Source of the DNA: Leucobacter sp. CX169
Lineage (GTDB): Bacteria > Actinomycetota > Actinomycetes > Actinomycetales > Microbacteriaceae
DNA: 64,000 nt
NCBI RefSeq assembly: GCF_017161405.1
Contig: NZ_CP071051.1
Location: forward strand, 1,302,001 to 1,366,000
Direction of reading: 5' to 3'
The notes beneath the pieces are model-generated. The model worked only from the letters and a program-made list of their open reading frames with translations. It did not search any database and had not been told where the DNA came from. The translations under genes were made by a program, and so were the position numbers. Below are positions 4,443 to 53,029 of the stretch, piece after piece. Each line of letters opens with the position of its first letter. Positions within the stretch are counted from its first letter, which is position 1.

Positions 4443-5951
4443 ATGGTCACCTTTGTTGATCAAGTACAGCTCCACCTAAAGGCGGGTCGAGGCGGCGACG
4501 GTTGTGCATCGATCAGGCGCGAGAAGTTTAAGCCGCTCGCCGGCCCTGATGGCGGCGTGGGCGGCAACGGCGGCAACGTCGTGCTGGTCGCGGATCCGCA
4601 GGTCACGACGCTCCTGGAGTACCACCGTCGACCGCACCGTACCGCCGAGAACGGCGGTTACGGCGCGGGCAACTACCGTGACGGGAACAAGGCCCCCGAC
4701 CTTGAGCTGCCGATGCCCGTCGGTACCGTCGTGAAGGATCTTGACGGCGAGGTCCTGGTGGACCTCACCGAGCCCGGCATGCGCTACGTCATTGCCGAGG
4801 GCGGCCTGGGTGGGCTGGGCAATAACGCGCTCGCCAGCACGAAGCGCAAGGCCCCCGGCTTCGCGCTCCTCGGCACCGAGGGGTGGGAAGGTTCGGTCAC
4901 GCTCGAGCTGAAGACCATCGCCGACGTTGCCCTGGTGGGGTACCCGTCGGCCGGAAAGTCCAGCTTGATCGCGGCGCTGAGCGCCGCTCGGCCGAAGATT
5001 GCCGATTACCCCTTTACGACGCTGCACCCGAACCTGGGCGTGGTACAGGAGGGTGAACACCGCTTCACGGTCGCCGATGTTCCCGGGTTGATCGAGGGCG
5101 CGAGCGAGGGAAAGGGCCTCGGACTCGACTTCCTGCGCCACGTCGAGCGGTGCAGCGCCCTGCTGCACGTCCTCGACTGCGCAACGCTCGAGCCGGGTCG
5201 CGACCCGCTCTCCGACCTCGACGTCATCTTGCACGAGCTGGGTGCCTACCCGGTCGAAGAGGGCCAGGTGCCGCTCATTGAGCGACCGCAGCTGGTCGCG
5301 CTGAACAAGATTGACGTGCCCGAGGCACGCGAACTTGCTGAGTTGGTGAAGCCCGAGCTCGAAGCGCGTGGCTACCGGGTCTTCATGATCTCGGCGGTCG
5401 CCCACGAGGGCCTTCGCGAGATGAACTTCGCGCTGGCCGAGGTCGTAGAGGCCGAGCGCGCTGCGCGCATCGCGCGCGAGAACTCGGTTGAGCGCATCAT
5501 TATTCGCCCGAAGCCGGTGAACGACGGCGGGTTCCGCGTCGTTTCCGAGGGCGGCAGCTACGGCAACTTCTTCCGCGTACTGGGTCTCAAGCCCGAACGC
5601 TGGGTTGCGCAGACCGACTTCAAGAACGACGAGGCCGTGGGCTATCTCGCTGACCGTTTGCAGAAGCTCGGCATCGAGGAGGCGCTCGTCAAGGCGGGTG
5701 CCGTTGAGGGTTCGACCGTCGTCATCGGCCCCGGATCCGGCGTCGTCTTCGACTGGGAGCCGACCCTGACCACTGCCGCAGAGGTTCAGATGGGCCAGCG
5801 CGGCACCGACGCGCGTGTCGAGCAGAACAACCGGCGCACCAACAAGGAGCGTCGCGAGGAGTACCACGATCTCATGGACGCGAAGGCTGAGGCTCGGTCG
5901 CAGCTGAAGAGCGAGCGTGAGTCTGGCATGTGGGAAGCGTTGGATGAGTAG
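4443..5951 (+). CDS. obgE: GTPase ObgE/CgtA
   Basis: Essential GTPase of 50S assembly and stress signalling, 502 aa. The glycine-rich Obg fold covers about residues 1-157 ([11 protein letters not shown]). The G domain follows with Walker [10 protein letters not shown] near 166, switch DVPGLIEGA and NKID. A C-terminal OCT domain lies near 350-430, followed by a charged tail. ATG 4443 is chosen over an upstream in-frame start because AAGGAAGGA precedes it and the MVTFVDQV start is the family norm. It overlaps proB by 8 nt, so the two are translationally coupled. Confidence 0.96.
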
Positions 5952-8937: not shown

Positions 8938-10436
8938 ACGAGCACGAGGAACCGAAGCTGACCAGCCGCCGTGCGCGGCGGATGCAGGAGCAATTGGAGA
9001 CCACCGGGATCCCCGTGGTCTCGAGTTCCCCTGCCCCCGCCGAGGAGAATGCTGCGGAAAACGCCGCAGTGACGGCGACTGGCAGCGACGCGATCGAGAT
9101 TTCGCCGGTTGACGAGAATGGCCGGGTGCGCACGCGACGCGAAATGCGCGAGCTACGCGAGGCGGCGCTTGCCCGCCAGGCAGAGGTTGACGCGCCTGTG
9201 GCCGCGCCGCAGACGGACACTGTCGTCGACACCGAGGTCGACGATGAGGTCGAGCCGAGCGCACCGGTTGTGGAATCGACTGAGACCGCGGCAGACCCCC
9301 AGCCCGAAGCGGGAGCCGACGCCGCACCCGCGGATGAACCCGCGATCGCGGCAGACGAGTTCGTTGTCGCCCCGGTCGAGGTTCCTGAGTTTGATGACCG
9401 GCTGGCTCCCACCGAGGCGATGTCGTTCGCGGATCTTCTTGAGGTGTCGACGAGCGCGGCAGCTGAGCCGAGCGAGTCGGCAATCGATGCGCTCGACGAG
9501 AGCGGCACGGACGGATCTGACGAAGAGCTCGAGGGGGAGGCGTCGGTTGCGGCTCCCGCAAAGGGTCGGTTCCGGATGCCCTGGAGTCGCTCGAAGGACG
9601 CGGCGAGCGACGACGAAGCCGCAGTCGAGCCGGAGGCTGACGCGGAGGCGGCAGACGACGAGGCGCCCCAGGAAGAGATTCTTGAGATTGATGGCGACGA
9701 AGACGTTGTCGGAGAACTCGTCGCCGAGGATGTTATGGGTGCAGCAGTCACCTTCGACCACTTCGAGCCCGCAGCCCCCGCCCTGGCGGTAGATGAGGAC
9801 GAGGATGAGGACGAGGACGGCGAAGTTGCCGACGCACCCGCGCCTACCTCGGCTCGCACGAGTTACTCGTTCCCCGACATAGCGCCGCTCGCCGAAGAGC
9901 GTTCGGTCTTCGATGATCCGGCGACGCAGGCGATTCCGGCACTGCCATCGGACGATCTCATCGCTCCGCTGACTGAACGCACCGGCGACTTCGACGACCT
10001 CATCTCGCGCGCAATTGCTGCCGAGGGTGCGACGTCGTCGAACACGGCGGCACTGATCCTGCCGTCGATGCCCGAGGGCACCGACCTGGCCGGACCGTTG
10101 GGGGAGACCGGTGAGCTGTTCGTCACCGGTTCCATCGAGCTGCCGAAGTCGTTAGGCGAGACGGGAGGGCACGCGCGTCTGCACGACTCGATCGAGTCTG
10201 ACCCGCTTGCCGACCTCGGAATCGACTTGAGCGACGAGCCTGTCCCTGATGACTCCGCCCCGGTGTCGGCAACGCGCGCCATCAGCGCGCGAACCGTCGA
10301 GGGATCCGGCGTCGTTGCCCCGCACACCAAGAAGGGGAATCGGCTTCCGCTGATCCTCTCGCTGACCGCCGGCGGGCTGCTGCTCGCCGTGATCGGGCTA
10401 CTGGCCTGGGGCGCGTCAAACGGAATGTTTGGGTAG
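8934..10436 (+). CDS. Large acidic, mostly disordered protein with C-terminal membrane anchor
   Basis: 500 aa. The N-terminus is basic ([13 protein letters not shown]), then most of the protein is Glu/Asp/Ala/Pro-rich and probably disordered. A second Arg-rich patch, [16 protein letters not shown], lies near residue 65. The last 30 residues form a single membrane helix. Repeated short motifs of the type [14 protein letters not shown] and [18 protein letters not shown] occur near 340-410. The start overlaps nadD by 4 nt, and rsfS follows 40 nt later, so it belongs to this operon. I do not recognise a family. The topology suggests a cytoplasmic acidic domain tethered to the membrane. Confidence 0.85.
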
Positions 10437-49513: not shown

Positions 49514-51586
49514 TTGGCCGAATCCAGTTACTCCGCTCGCCATCTCACCGTTCTTGAGGGGCTCGAAGCGGTGCGGAAACGGCCTGGCATGTACATCGGC
49601 TCGACCGATTCGCGAGGCCTGATGCATTGCCTCTGGGAGATCATCGACAATTCCGTCGACGAGGCGCTCGCGGGGCACGGCAATGAGATCTCCATCGAAC
49701 TGCACAGCGACGGCAGCGTCACCGTGCGCGACAACGGTCGTGGCGTTCCCGTCGATATCGAGCCGAAGAGCGGCCTCTCGGGCGTGGAACTGGTGTTCAC
49801 GAAGCTGCACGCCGGCGGTAAGTTCGGTGGCGGGGGATACGCCGCCTCTGGCGGCCTGCACGGTGTAGGGGCGTCCGTCGTGAACGCCCTGTCGGCGCGC
49901 CTTGACGTCGAGGTGGACCGGGACGGCAAGACCTGGGCGATGTCGTTCCGCCACGGCGAGCCGGGTATCTTCTCGGGCGATGCGCCCGACAGCACGTTTA
50001 CCCCGTTTGAGAACGCCTCGGAGCTGCGCGTCGTCGGGAAGGTGAAGAAGGGCGTCACGGGCACCCGGGTGCGGTACTGGGCAGACCCCCAGATCTTCCT
50101 GCGCGAGGCCGAGTTCGAGACCGACTCGCTCGTCGCGCGTGCGCGGCAGACGGCGTTCCTCGTTCCCGGGTTGGCGATTGACATTGTCGACGCCCGCGGC
50201 GAGGAGACGACTCACCAGCACTTCGCCTACGAGGGTGGCATCTCGGAGTTCGTCGATTACCTCGCGACCGACGGCCCGGTGAGCGACACCTGGCGCATCA
50301 CCGACACGGGTCATTTCTCGGAGACCGTGCCGGTCATCGACGAGGCGGGAAACATGGTCTCGCGTGAGGTGAAGCGCGAATGTGAGATCGACATCGCGAT
50401 GCGCTGGGGGACCGGGTACGAGACCAACGTCAAGAGCTTCGTCAACATCATCGCGACGCCCAAGGGCGGCACGCACGTGGCGGGCTTCGAGCAGGGCCTC
50501 ACGAAGTTCTTCCGCAAGCAGATCGAGACGAACTCCCGCAAGCTCAAGGCCGGATCGGACCGTCCCGACAAGGACGACATCCTCACCGGTCTCACTGCCG
50601 TGATCATGGTGCGCGTTCCCGAGCCCCAGTTCGAGGGGCAGACGAAGGAGGTTCTGGGCACCGCCGCCGTGCGTGCCATCGTCGCGAAGGTGGTGACGAA
50701 GCACCTCGACGAGCGCTTCAGCTCGGCGAAGCGGCACGACAAGATCCAGTGCGCCGCGGTCCTCGAGAAGATGGTCTCGGAGATGAAGTCGCGGATCTCG
50801 CTGCGCGCGCAGCGTGACACGCAGCGCCGAAAGACCTCGCTCGAGAGTTCCTCGTTGCCTGCGAAGCTGATCGATTGCCGTTCGAAGTCGGTCGAGGGCA
50901 CCGAGCTCTTCATCGTGGAGGGCGACAGCGCACTCGGCACCGCGCGCCCCGCGCGCGACAGCGAGTTCCAGGCGCTCTTGCCGATCCGGGGCAAGATCCT
51001 GAACGTGCAGAAGGCCTCTGTCGCGGACATGCTCTCCAACCGCGAATGTGGCGACATCATCAAGGTGATCGGGGCGGGTTCGGGGCGCGACTTTGACCTG
51101 GCCTCGGCTCGGTACGGCCGCGTGATCATCATGAGCGACGCCGACGTGGACGGCGCGCACATCCGCACCCTGCTCCTGACGCTCTTCTTCCGGTACATGC
51201 GACCGATGCTCGAGGCGGGCCGCGTGTTCGCCGCCGTGCCGCCGCTGCACCGTGTCATCGTGCAAAACGCCGGGCGCAAACCCAACGACGTTATTTACAC
51301 GTACAGCGAGCAAGAACTGCAGTCCCTACTCGCCGACCTCCGCAAGCGGGGTAAGAAGTACGTCGAGCCCATCCAGCGCTACAAGGGCCTGGGAGAGATG
51401 GACGCCGACCAGCTAGCAGAGACGACCATGGACCGCGAGCACCGAATGTTGCGGCGAGTGCGGGTGTCGGACGCGCACGAGGCAGCGCTCATGTTCGAGC
51501 TGCTGATGGGCAACGAGGTGGCCCCGCGCAAGGAGTTCATCGTGGACAACGCCGACGAGATGGACCGCGACCGCATCGACGCGTAG
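49514..51586 (+). CDS. parE: Type IIA topoisomerase subunit B (ParE/GyrB-like)
   Basis: 690 aa. GHKL ATPase with WEIIDNSVDEALAG and GGKFGGGGYAASGGLHGVG. The TOPRIM domain has EGDSALGTARPARDSEFQALLPIRGKI-type sequence, with the acidic D-x-D pair in SDADVDGAHI. The short C-terminal region is that of ParE, without the GyrB insert. The start is TTG 49514, with AAGGAG ten bases upstream. Its partner is the subunit A gene encoded convergently at 53079. The main gyrA/gyrB pair is expected elsewhere near the origin. Confidence 0.93.
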   Translation: MAESSYSARHLTVLEGLEAVRKRPGMYIGSTDSRGLMHCLWEIIDNSVDEALAGHGNEISIELHSDGSVTVRDNGRGVPVDIEPKSGLSGVELVFTKLHAGGKFGGGGYAASGGLHGVGASVVNALSARLDVEVDRDGKTWAMSFRHGEPGIFSGDAPDSTFTPFENASELRVVGKVKKGVTGTRVRYWADPQIFLREAEFETDSLVARARQTAFLVPGLAIDIVDARGEETTHQHFAYEGGISEFVDYLATDGPVSDTWRITDTGHFSETVPVIDEAGNMVSREVKRECEIDIAMRWGTGYETNVKSFVNIIATPKGGTHVAGFEQGLTKFFRKQIETNSRKLKAGSDRPDKDDILTGLTAVIMVRVPEPQFEGQTKEVLGTAAVRAIVAKVVTKHLDERFSSAKRHDKIQCAAVLEKMVSEMKSRISLRAQRDTQRRKTSLESSSLPAKLIDCRSKSVEGTELFIVEGDSALGTARPARDSEFQALLPIRGKILNVQKASVADMLSNRECGDIIKVIGAGSGRDFDLASARYGRVIIMSDADVDGAHIRTLLLTLFFRYMRPMLEAGRVFAAVPPLHRVIVQNAGRKPNDVIYTYSEQELQSLLADLRKRGKKYVEPIQRYKGLGEMDADQLAETTMDREHRMLRRVRVSDAHEAALMFELLMGNEVAPRKEFIVDNADEMDRDRIDA

Positions 51587-51593
51587 TTCGGTG

Positions 51594-51623
51594 GGGGTGG
51601 GGCTGGGGCTGCCTGGCCACCCC
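51594..51623 (+). terminator. Hairpin after parE
   Basis: GGGGTGG at 51594-51600 pairs with CCACCCC at 51617-51623. No U-tract. Confidence 0.45.
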
Positions 51624-51632
51624 GACCTCGTC

Positions 51633-51692
51633 GTTCCCCGGACAGTTGGTGACGGATTTCGCCTGATTTTGGTGCGTAGTTGTCCGGGGAAC
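51633..51692. repeat. 60-bp palindromic repeat element, copy 1
   Basis: Bounded by a perfect 12-bp inverted repeat, GTTCCCCGGACA (51633-51644) and its complement (51681-51692). The left half contains TTGGTGACGGATTTCG, also found in copy 2. Confidence 0.75.
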
Positions 51693-51715
51693 CTTGGGTG
51701 TTGAAACGCTGCGGT

Positions 51716-51775
51716 CTTGCCCGGACGGTTGGTGACGAAATTCGGGCTGGAACCGTGACAAAGTGTCCGGGGGGC
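51716..51775. repeat. 60-bp palindromic repeat element, copy 2
   Basis: Aligns to copy 1 without gaps: 24 of the first 30 bases match, few in the middle, and 8 of the last 10. The terminal pairs CCCGGAC/GTCCGGG are kept. Both arms of both copies share a CCCGGACA...GTNACG core when read outward. Confidence 0.7.
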
Positions 51776-51910: not shown

Positions 51911-52897
51911 ATGCCTGAAGCCCAGCGTCCGCTTTCCGCCCAGCTGGGCCAGGTGTTTAGTGCTGCGGAAGCGCGAGCCGATGGCGTTCCGGCTCGGCGG
52001 CTGAAGAGCTCGGACCTCATTCGCGTGTCCAGGGGGCTGTACCTGCGACGCTCCGCTCCTGAGCTCCGGGCAGAACTCGAAGCACCGCACCCTGCCGCGC
52101 GGGCGTATCAGTCACATTTGGAGCGAGCCCTCGCTGTGGGGAGGTACTTGCCGGCTGGACACTTCCTCAGTCACGCCTCAGCGGCAGTTGTCTGGGGCCT
52201 GCCGGTACCGACGAATCGGCTTTCGCGAATCGAGGTCGCTTGCTTCCGCCCATTGCGACGGCTGCGGAGAACGGATGTATGGGCCCATGAGGAAAGCGCA
52301 CAGACGACCATCGTCACCGAGGCGCAGGGCGTCCCCGTGAGCGGCCCAGCGTCGACCTGGGCGATGCTTGCGCCGACCCTCTCGATGCGCGACGGTGTTG
52401 CGCTGGGGGACGCGGTGATTCGTCAGCACCGGATCCCCGGGACGTCGCGGGTGCCCGCCCGGCCGCTTGCGACGATCACCGAACTCGACGCGGCTGTTGC
52501 TGCTGGCCGGCGAATCGGCGTCGCGCGGCTGCGGGAGCTCCTACCACAGCTATCGAATCAAAGCGCATCCGCGCCCGAGAGTCACCTGCGGGTGCTGCTG
52601 CAGCAGTGGGGGCTGCCTCCGCCCCAGCTTGATTTCGATGTGCGCGGCGATGACGGTGAGCTGCTCGGCTGCAGCGAGCTGGTGTACTCCGAACGCCGGC
52701 TCGCGCTCGAGTACGAGGGTGGCCAGCACCGGACCGAGACGGCTCAGTGGAACCGTGACATCGAGAAGTATCGGCACTATGCGCAGGCGGGATGGGAGGT
52801 GATTCGCGTCACGGCCGAGCTGCTCTATCGTCGGCCCGAGGTGTTGCGGAGACAGGTCGAAGAGGCCTTCGCGCGGCGAGGCTGGTCCCGGGAATGA
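51911..52897 (+). CDS. AbiEi-like N-terminus plus DUF559 (endonuclease-fold) protein
   Basis: 328 aa. The N-terminal third resembles the AbiEi-type antitoxin winged-helix domain (GLYLRRSAPE, HFLSHASAAVVWGLPVP). The C-terminal 110 residues form a DUF559/Vsr-like endonuclease fold: SELVYSERRLALEYEGGQHR, then RDIEKYRHYAQAGWEVIRVTA. Such fused proteins are abundant, single-gene, in actinobacteria and no toxin partner is present here. The role is unknown; restriction or DNA repair has been suggested. It is an accessory gene between convergent parE and parC and is flanked by repeats on both sides. ATG 51911 follows GGGAAG closely. Confidence 0.8.
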   Translation: MPEAQRPLSAQLGQVFSAAEARADGVPARRLKSSDLIRVSRGLYLRRSAPELRAELEAPHPAARAYQSHLERALAVGRYLPAGHFLSHASAAVVWGLPVPTNRLSRIEVACFRPLRRLRRTDVWAHEESAQTTIVTEAQGVPVSGPASTWAMLAPTLSMRDGVALGDAVIRQHRIPGTSRVPARPLATITELDAAVAAGRRIGVARLRELLPQLSNQSASAPESHLRVLLQQWGLPPPQLDFDVRGDDGELLGCSELVYSERRLALEYEGGQHRTETAQWNRDIEKYRHYAQAGWEVIRVTAELLYRRPEVLRRQVEEAFARRGWSRE

Positions 52898-52979
52898 TAC
52901 GACGCGGTGCCAGGTTTTCGGGAATGAGGCGAAGCCGCGCCAGGCTTTCGGGAACGATACGACGCGGTGCCAAGTTTTC
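52890..52979 (+). repeat. Three tandem 30-bp repeats
   Basis: Units at 52890-52919, 52920-52949 and 52950-52979, each starting GGGAAYGA and ending in TTTTC or CTTTC, with a GCGGTGCC core in units 1 and 3. Units 1 and 3 differ at two positions, the middle one is more divergent. The first unit contains the stop codon of the DUF559 gene. Confidence 0.85.
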
Positions 52980-53029
52980 GCGAGAGCGCCCTTCGGGCTA
53001 TGCGGAACTGGGTTCCAAGGGACGCAAAA

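Follow-up and report, generated by a model that had tools for sequence, protein, structure and literature searches.

Do the two palindromic elements that separate parE from a DUF559 gene in Leucobacter sp. CX169 represent a family of mobile, REP-like repeats, and if so, which gene might have spread them? An earlier note, based on the sequence of a 64,000-nucleotide stretch of this genome (hereafter, the window), described two 60-bp units lying 24 bp apart, each closed by inverted CCCGGAC arms and sharing an inner motif around a diverged middle, and proposed that they belong to a small mobile or REP-like family rather than being simple terminators. The features considered here are as follows:

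49514 to 51586 (+), parE (topoisomerase IV subunit B), the upstream neighbour, not part of the element
51587 to 51632 (+), a separate G+C-rich hairpin between the parE stop and element A (-27.6 kcal/mol, z -2.1), which could be the parE terminator, so that A and B need not be
51633 to 51692 (+), palindromic element A, 60 bp, with perfect 12-nt arms
51716 to 51775 (+), palindromic element B, 60 bp, with 7-bp perfect arms that then become imperfect
51911 to 52897 (+), a gene for an AbiEi-like plus DUF559/MTES_1575 (Vsr-like) nuclease of 328 aa, the proposed partner

Our analysis confirmed that the observation is real, apart from the spacing, which is 23 bp rather than 24 bp. Element A has the arms GTTCCCCGGACA and TGTCCGGGGAAC with 36 nt between them, whereas the arms of B are CCCGGAC and GTCCGGG, and the outer CCCGGAC-to-GTCCGGG span is exactly 52 bp in both. 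The sequence TTGGTGACG is shared, and A and B agree at 38 of 60 positions, but at only 5 of 16 in the centre. As single strands, A folds far better than shuffled sequences on both strands (z -4.5 [+] and -4.4 [-]), and the corresponding values for B are -2.5 and -1.9. To determine if this arrangement could arise by chance, we searched the 2.94-Mb genome (one contig) with the pattern CCCGGACN{26,50}GTCCGGG, which occurred at 3 places, whereas the reversed control occurred at none, indicating that the arrangement is not due to chance.

The third place is an additional element, C, at about 2780277 to 2780336 of the genome, with the same 52-bp span and z values of -5.4 and -5.8. It lies at an unrelated locus, beyond the 3' end of livF (our reading of the ORF translation) and about 120 bp upstream of the start of an unrelated nucleotidyltransferase-like gene (4536 to 5159, minus strand, of the stretch carrying C; PADLOC PDC-M05A, E 1.3e-13). 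The latter is followed by a small gene without a Pfam match, for which a HEPN partner is only our guess. A and C agree at 39 of 60 positions and B and C at 31, with 5 and 2 agreements, respectively, in the central 16. Arm patterns, BLAST, and a covariance model built from A, B, and C found no other copy in the genome. The sequence TTCCCCGGACR, with up to one mismatch, is unevenly spread in the same genome (36 forward, 64 reverse). A second palindrome family, with arms GACCTTGCGCA/TGCGCAAGGTC, is present there in two copies in about 0.55 Mb (positions 76 to 138 and 9238 to 9304 of two separate stretches), with no partner gene found.

No second genome among 398 of the same bacterial family carries the sequence. 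BLAST of these 398 genomes (own genome included) gave four others, all with short partial matches. The exact pattern with a 38-nt gap was present in 16 of the 398, of which only this genome has three places and each of the other 15 has one; by our count, the reversed control hit 11 genomes. A wide pattern scan of a genome-contig collection, from which own or near records may be absent, gave two hits that look unrelated by eye. Viral contigs, phages, and plasmids gave no element match; the two Rhodococcus plasmid hits cover only 30 bp beside A. No known RNA family was matched.

The earlier note had named the absence of further copies, or presence only as a conserved parE terminator, as findings that would count against its reading. 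Neither was found: copy C exists, and the parE downstream stretches of seven relatives show no such element by eye (in four others of the eleven tried, the tail motif was not found). The note's interpretation is therefore partly supported, because a REP-like family rather than a simple terminator holds in outline, but the family is tiny and the elements are not tagged REPs. More specifically, A, B, and C are 60 bp rather than 20 to 40 bp, CGTC precedes A but not B or C (by eye), and the copy number is not high (3 copies). Moreover, no gene matching Y1_Tnp (PF01797), the RAYT domain, was found in the own genome, whereas the control search detected such genes in 5 of 14 genomes. The note had treated the DUF559 gene only as a boundary, whereas our evidence makes it the likely partner gene.

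To investigate whether palindromes of the same anatomy exist elsewhere, we applied the covariance model to the 398 genomes, which gave 7 with E <= 0.05, own included. Five of the six others (denoted G149, G148, G333, G199, and G173) show real palindromes of ~57 to 80 bp of different sequence, three of them in tandem, whereas the hit in the sixth (G152) lies in what looks like coding DNA. A sequence-blind scan of stretches from six genomes gave 114 inverted repeats of 48 to 70 bp against 50 for the reversed control (G149 38/23, G148 23/6, G333 11/3, G199 8/1, G173 7/7, and G000 27/10), although this count includes ordinary long hairpins and coding repeats. Three stretches of G149 (L110, L114, and L121; L numbers denote individual stretches or loci) carry clusters of palindromes with arms CGAGACTCCACGAC, as well as a 60 to 70 bp family ACCCTCGTGTTCGG with centre GGTCCTAGGACC, with many copies in 400 kb. 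A similar palindrome (CAGGAGATCGCACG/CAGGAGATCACAGG) is present in G148 (L147) and G199 (L160), two species of one genus, so some families may be genus-wide.

When the same stretches were searched with the window's DUF559-like protein, its relatives appeared right beside such palindromes. To test this association, we built a profile, which found 14 strong loci and one weak one (L182) in these stretches and in plasmid-collection records that had been found by protein searches; loci from Collinsella (L238) and Nonomuraea (L239) were added later. We excluded the window as biased and L182 as weak, leaving 15 loci. Of these, 11 have a palindrome scoring >=13 within 200 bp of at least one gene end, against 150 of 1839 predicted control genes (Fisher p 1.5e-9), and 4 of 15 have one on both sides, against 3 of 1839 (p 9.6e-8). 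A first version against 3000 random windows agreed. The controls come from one family only, however, while 10 of the 15 loci come from other taxa, and the gene starts for L121, L190, L192, L212, and L239 were chosen by us (the first start for L212, at 1558, gave no 5' palindrome at 200 bp). Four loci (L193, L195, L196, and L239) have no palindrome, and L192 and L197 only just reach the cut-off. The five loci from family stretches that had not been chosen for this gene (L111, L121, L135, L155, and L212) all score on a side, but the L121 palindrome is compact and terminator-like. The window's own gene has palindromes on the 5' side only, 218 and 135 bp before the ATG, and scores nothing in the 200-bp test. 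One control gene, an alpha/beta-hydrolase-like gene of G148 (L130, 2241 to 3443), is also flanked on both sides by the same palindrome of another family (GCTGCAGTTCCATG), so two-sidedness alone is not unique to DUF559.

We next compared the palindromes on the two sides of each gene. At the six loci with palindromes on both sides under a wider search (L135, L191, L194, L197, L212, and L238), the 5' and 3' palindromes are copies of each other, aligning with scores of 52 to 93 (the better of the two orientations for each except L238 and L191, where direct is better), whereas the maximum of 60 comparisons between loci is 20. The direct alignment is better in three loci and the inverted in three. 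For L197 and L212, the 5' copy lies outside the 200-bp test or scores below 13 in it.

Solo copies also occur elsewhere in the same genomes. We found 12 full-length copies in 400 kb of G148, including the two flanking ones, of which 11 are intergenic, 6 lie between convergent genes, and 1 between divergent genes (genes predicted by a simple script), a REP-like placement. Counting strands of a palindrome separately, there were 20 places in 8 Tsukamurella records, 8 in one record of Arthrobacter sp. ERGS1:01, and 13 in one Collinsella record, and none elsewhere in that collection. The seven annotated Tsukamurella regions inspected lie beside CDS ends, five or more between convergent genes, and none next to a DUF559 gene. 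In contrast, G149 (L111) and G333 (L155) show no second full copy in the stretches examined. Covariation in the G148 family did not exceed that of shuffles, and no presence/absence polymorphism was seen in same-genus genomes, in which no orthologous sites overlapped.

The proteins carry an AbiEi-like N-terminal part (PADLOC E 6e-5 for the window, down to 5e-12 for L135, none for L155) and a C-terminal part resembling DUF559/MTES_1575, mostly under Pfam's cut-off: the window protein scores 25.5 bits against 38.2 for MTES_1575, and of 9 relatives 1 exceeds the DUF559 cut-off (L194, 23.8 against 20.6). Among 13 sequences, E223 is present in 13, D256 in 12 (only the window has Glu), and E267 in 12, and the window protein keeps both E223 and E267; the catalytic roles of these residues are inferred. 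NCBIfam gave no match in 7 of 7 proteins, a profile search of the PDB gave at best a weak match to 3hrl ("Endonuclease-Like Protein", E 0.018), viral contigs contained no relative, and a single-sequence fold prediction of the window protein was discarded (mean pLDDT 34.8).

Taken together, we favour, with moderate confidence, the explanation that A, B, and C are a small, lineage-restricted family of REP-like, non-autonomous palindromic repeats, belonging to a wider class in Actinomycetota whose partner gene encodes an AbiEi-like DNA-binding domain fused to a DUF559/MTES_1575 (Vsr-like, PD-(D/E)XK) nuclease. Our data demonstrate the class-level association of the gene with palindromes, the same palindrome on both sides of several genes, solo copies in the same genome, and sequences that differ between genomes. 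What we infer, by analogy with the mechanism proposed for RAYTs and REPs, is that the N-terminal domain would recognise the arms, the nuclease would nick or cut at the palindrome, and repair or re-joining would copy it to new, mostly intergenic, sites. In this view, the window's family is near extinction or young and possibly decayed, given its three copies, a gene flanked on one side only, and one putative catalytic Asp changed to Glu. A bolder and tentative reading is that these fusion proteins are a second, independent invention of a dedicated REP-mobilising enzyme, i.e., a Vsr-like mismatch- or structure-specific nuclease that recognises palindromes, possibly through their G-T wobbles, and spreads them, in which case a large "unknown function/antitoxin" gene family would be a class of mobile-element enzymes.

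Among the alternatives, the strongest, although unlikely, is that the palindromes are operators, bound by the AbiEi-like winged-helix part as an autoregulator, with scattered copies serving a small regulon. AbiEi antitoxins bind inverted repeats in their own promoter, A and B lie upstream of the gene, and the G148 palindrome reads, by eye, as tandem and inverted copies of a ~17-bp unit, as binding sites would. However, palindromes are as common on the 3' side as on the 5' side of the genes, and solo copies sit mostly between or after gene 3' ends, where an operator has no obvious use, and C lies about 120 bp upstream of an unrelated gene start. It is also doubtful that the elements are remnants of a miniature inverted-repeat element of an ordinary insertion sequence now lost, lying near the DUF559 gene by accident. 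Their sharp conserved ends, diverged centre, fixed 52-bp span, low copy number, and restriction to one genome fit this idea, but no candidate ends of a longer element paired at a distance among the arm matches with 0 to 1 mismatch, and the class-level tie to DUF559 genes would be coincidence.

The least likely alternative is that they act as RNA hairpins, terminating transcription or blocking readthrough behind parE and livF. Folding is strong, with G-U pairs favouring the + strand, and the elements lie behind gene 3' ends; nevertheless, they have no T-run and an open 36-nt centre, separate compact hairpins lie nearer parE and livF (the latter by eye), C is oriented opposite to the transcription of its neighbours while A and B are oriented with it, and the parE downstream stretches of the seven relatives examined lack the element by eye. 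The only terminator-like prediction was a 5-bp inner stem within A (1 found against 0.4 in shuffles).

The closest known systems are REP/RAYT units, or REPtrons (PMC2817692; Di Nocera et al., PMC3733652), which comprise a gene flanked by copies of a palindrome scattered in the same genome, as at the two-sided loci of our class but only on the 5' side in the window, and likewise have species-specific sequences, locations behind genes and between convergent genes, and tandem clusters. Here, the partner is instead a DUF559/Vsr-like nuclease with an AbiEi-like N-terminus rather than a tyrosine (Y1) transposase, the elements are ~50 to 75 bp rather than 20 to 40 bp, there is no conserved GTAG/CGTC tag, and the hosts are Actinomycetota. 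CGTC-type REPs, which are reported to lack a dedicated transposase (PMC3733652), are also REP-like palindromes whose mobilising enzyme is unknown, but are mainly alphaproteobacterial and were not linked to DUF559 in the text consulted. AbiE type IV toxin-antitoxin systems share the N-terminal similarity to AbiEi, but our proteins carry a C-terminal nuclease in the same polypeptide. Vsr/DUF559 endonucleases, e.g., VsrA of Caulobacter (PMC12907096) and the MTES_1575 REase (PMC3710099), share weak similarity with conserved E, D, E, and [HK], although the D is Glu in the window protein, and are described there in mismatch repair or conflict-system fusions, not with repeats. Literature searches on DUF559 with palindromes, inverted repeats, transposition, or actinobacteria, and on MTES_1575, found nothing linking them, although absence from open-licence articles alone is weak evidence. 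As RAYTs are the known dedicated partners of bacterial palindromic repeats, a second partner class built on a Vsr-like nuclease would give a function to an actinobacterial gene family now named "DUF559" or "AbiEi antitoxin", and would make the spread of REP-like elements testable in a new group.

Finally, the 3' end of the window's DUF559 gene is overlapped by three ~30-bp tandem direct repeats (CGGGAATGATACGACGCGGTGCCAGGTTTT; 52889 to 52983), which are not palindromic.
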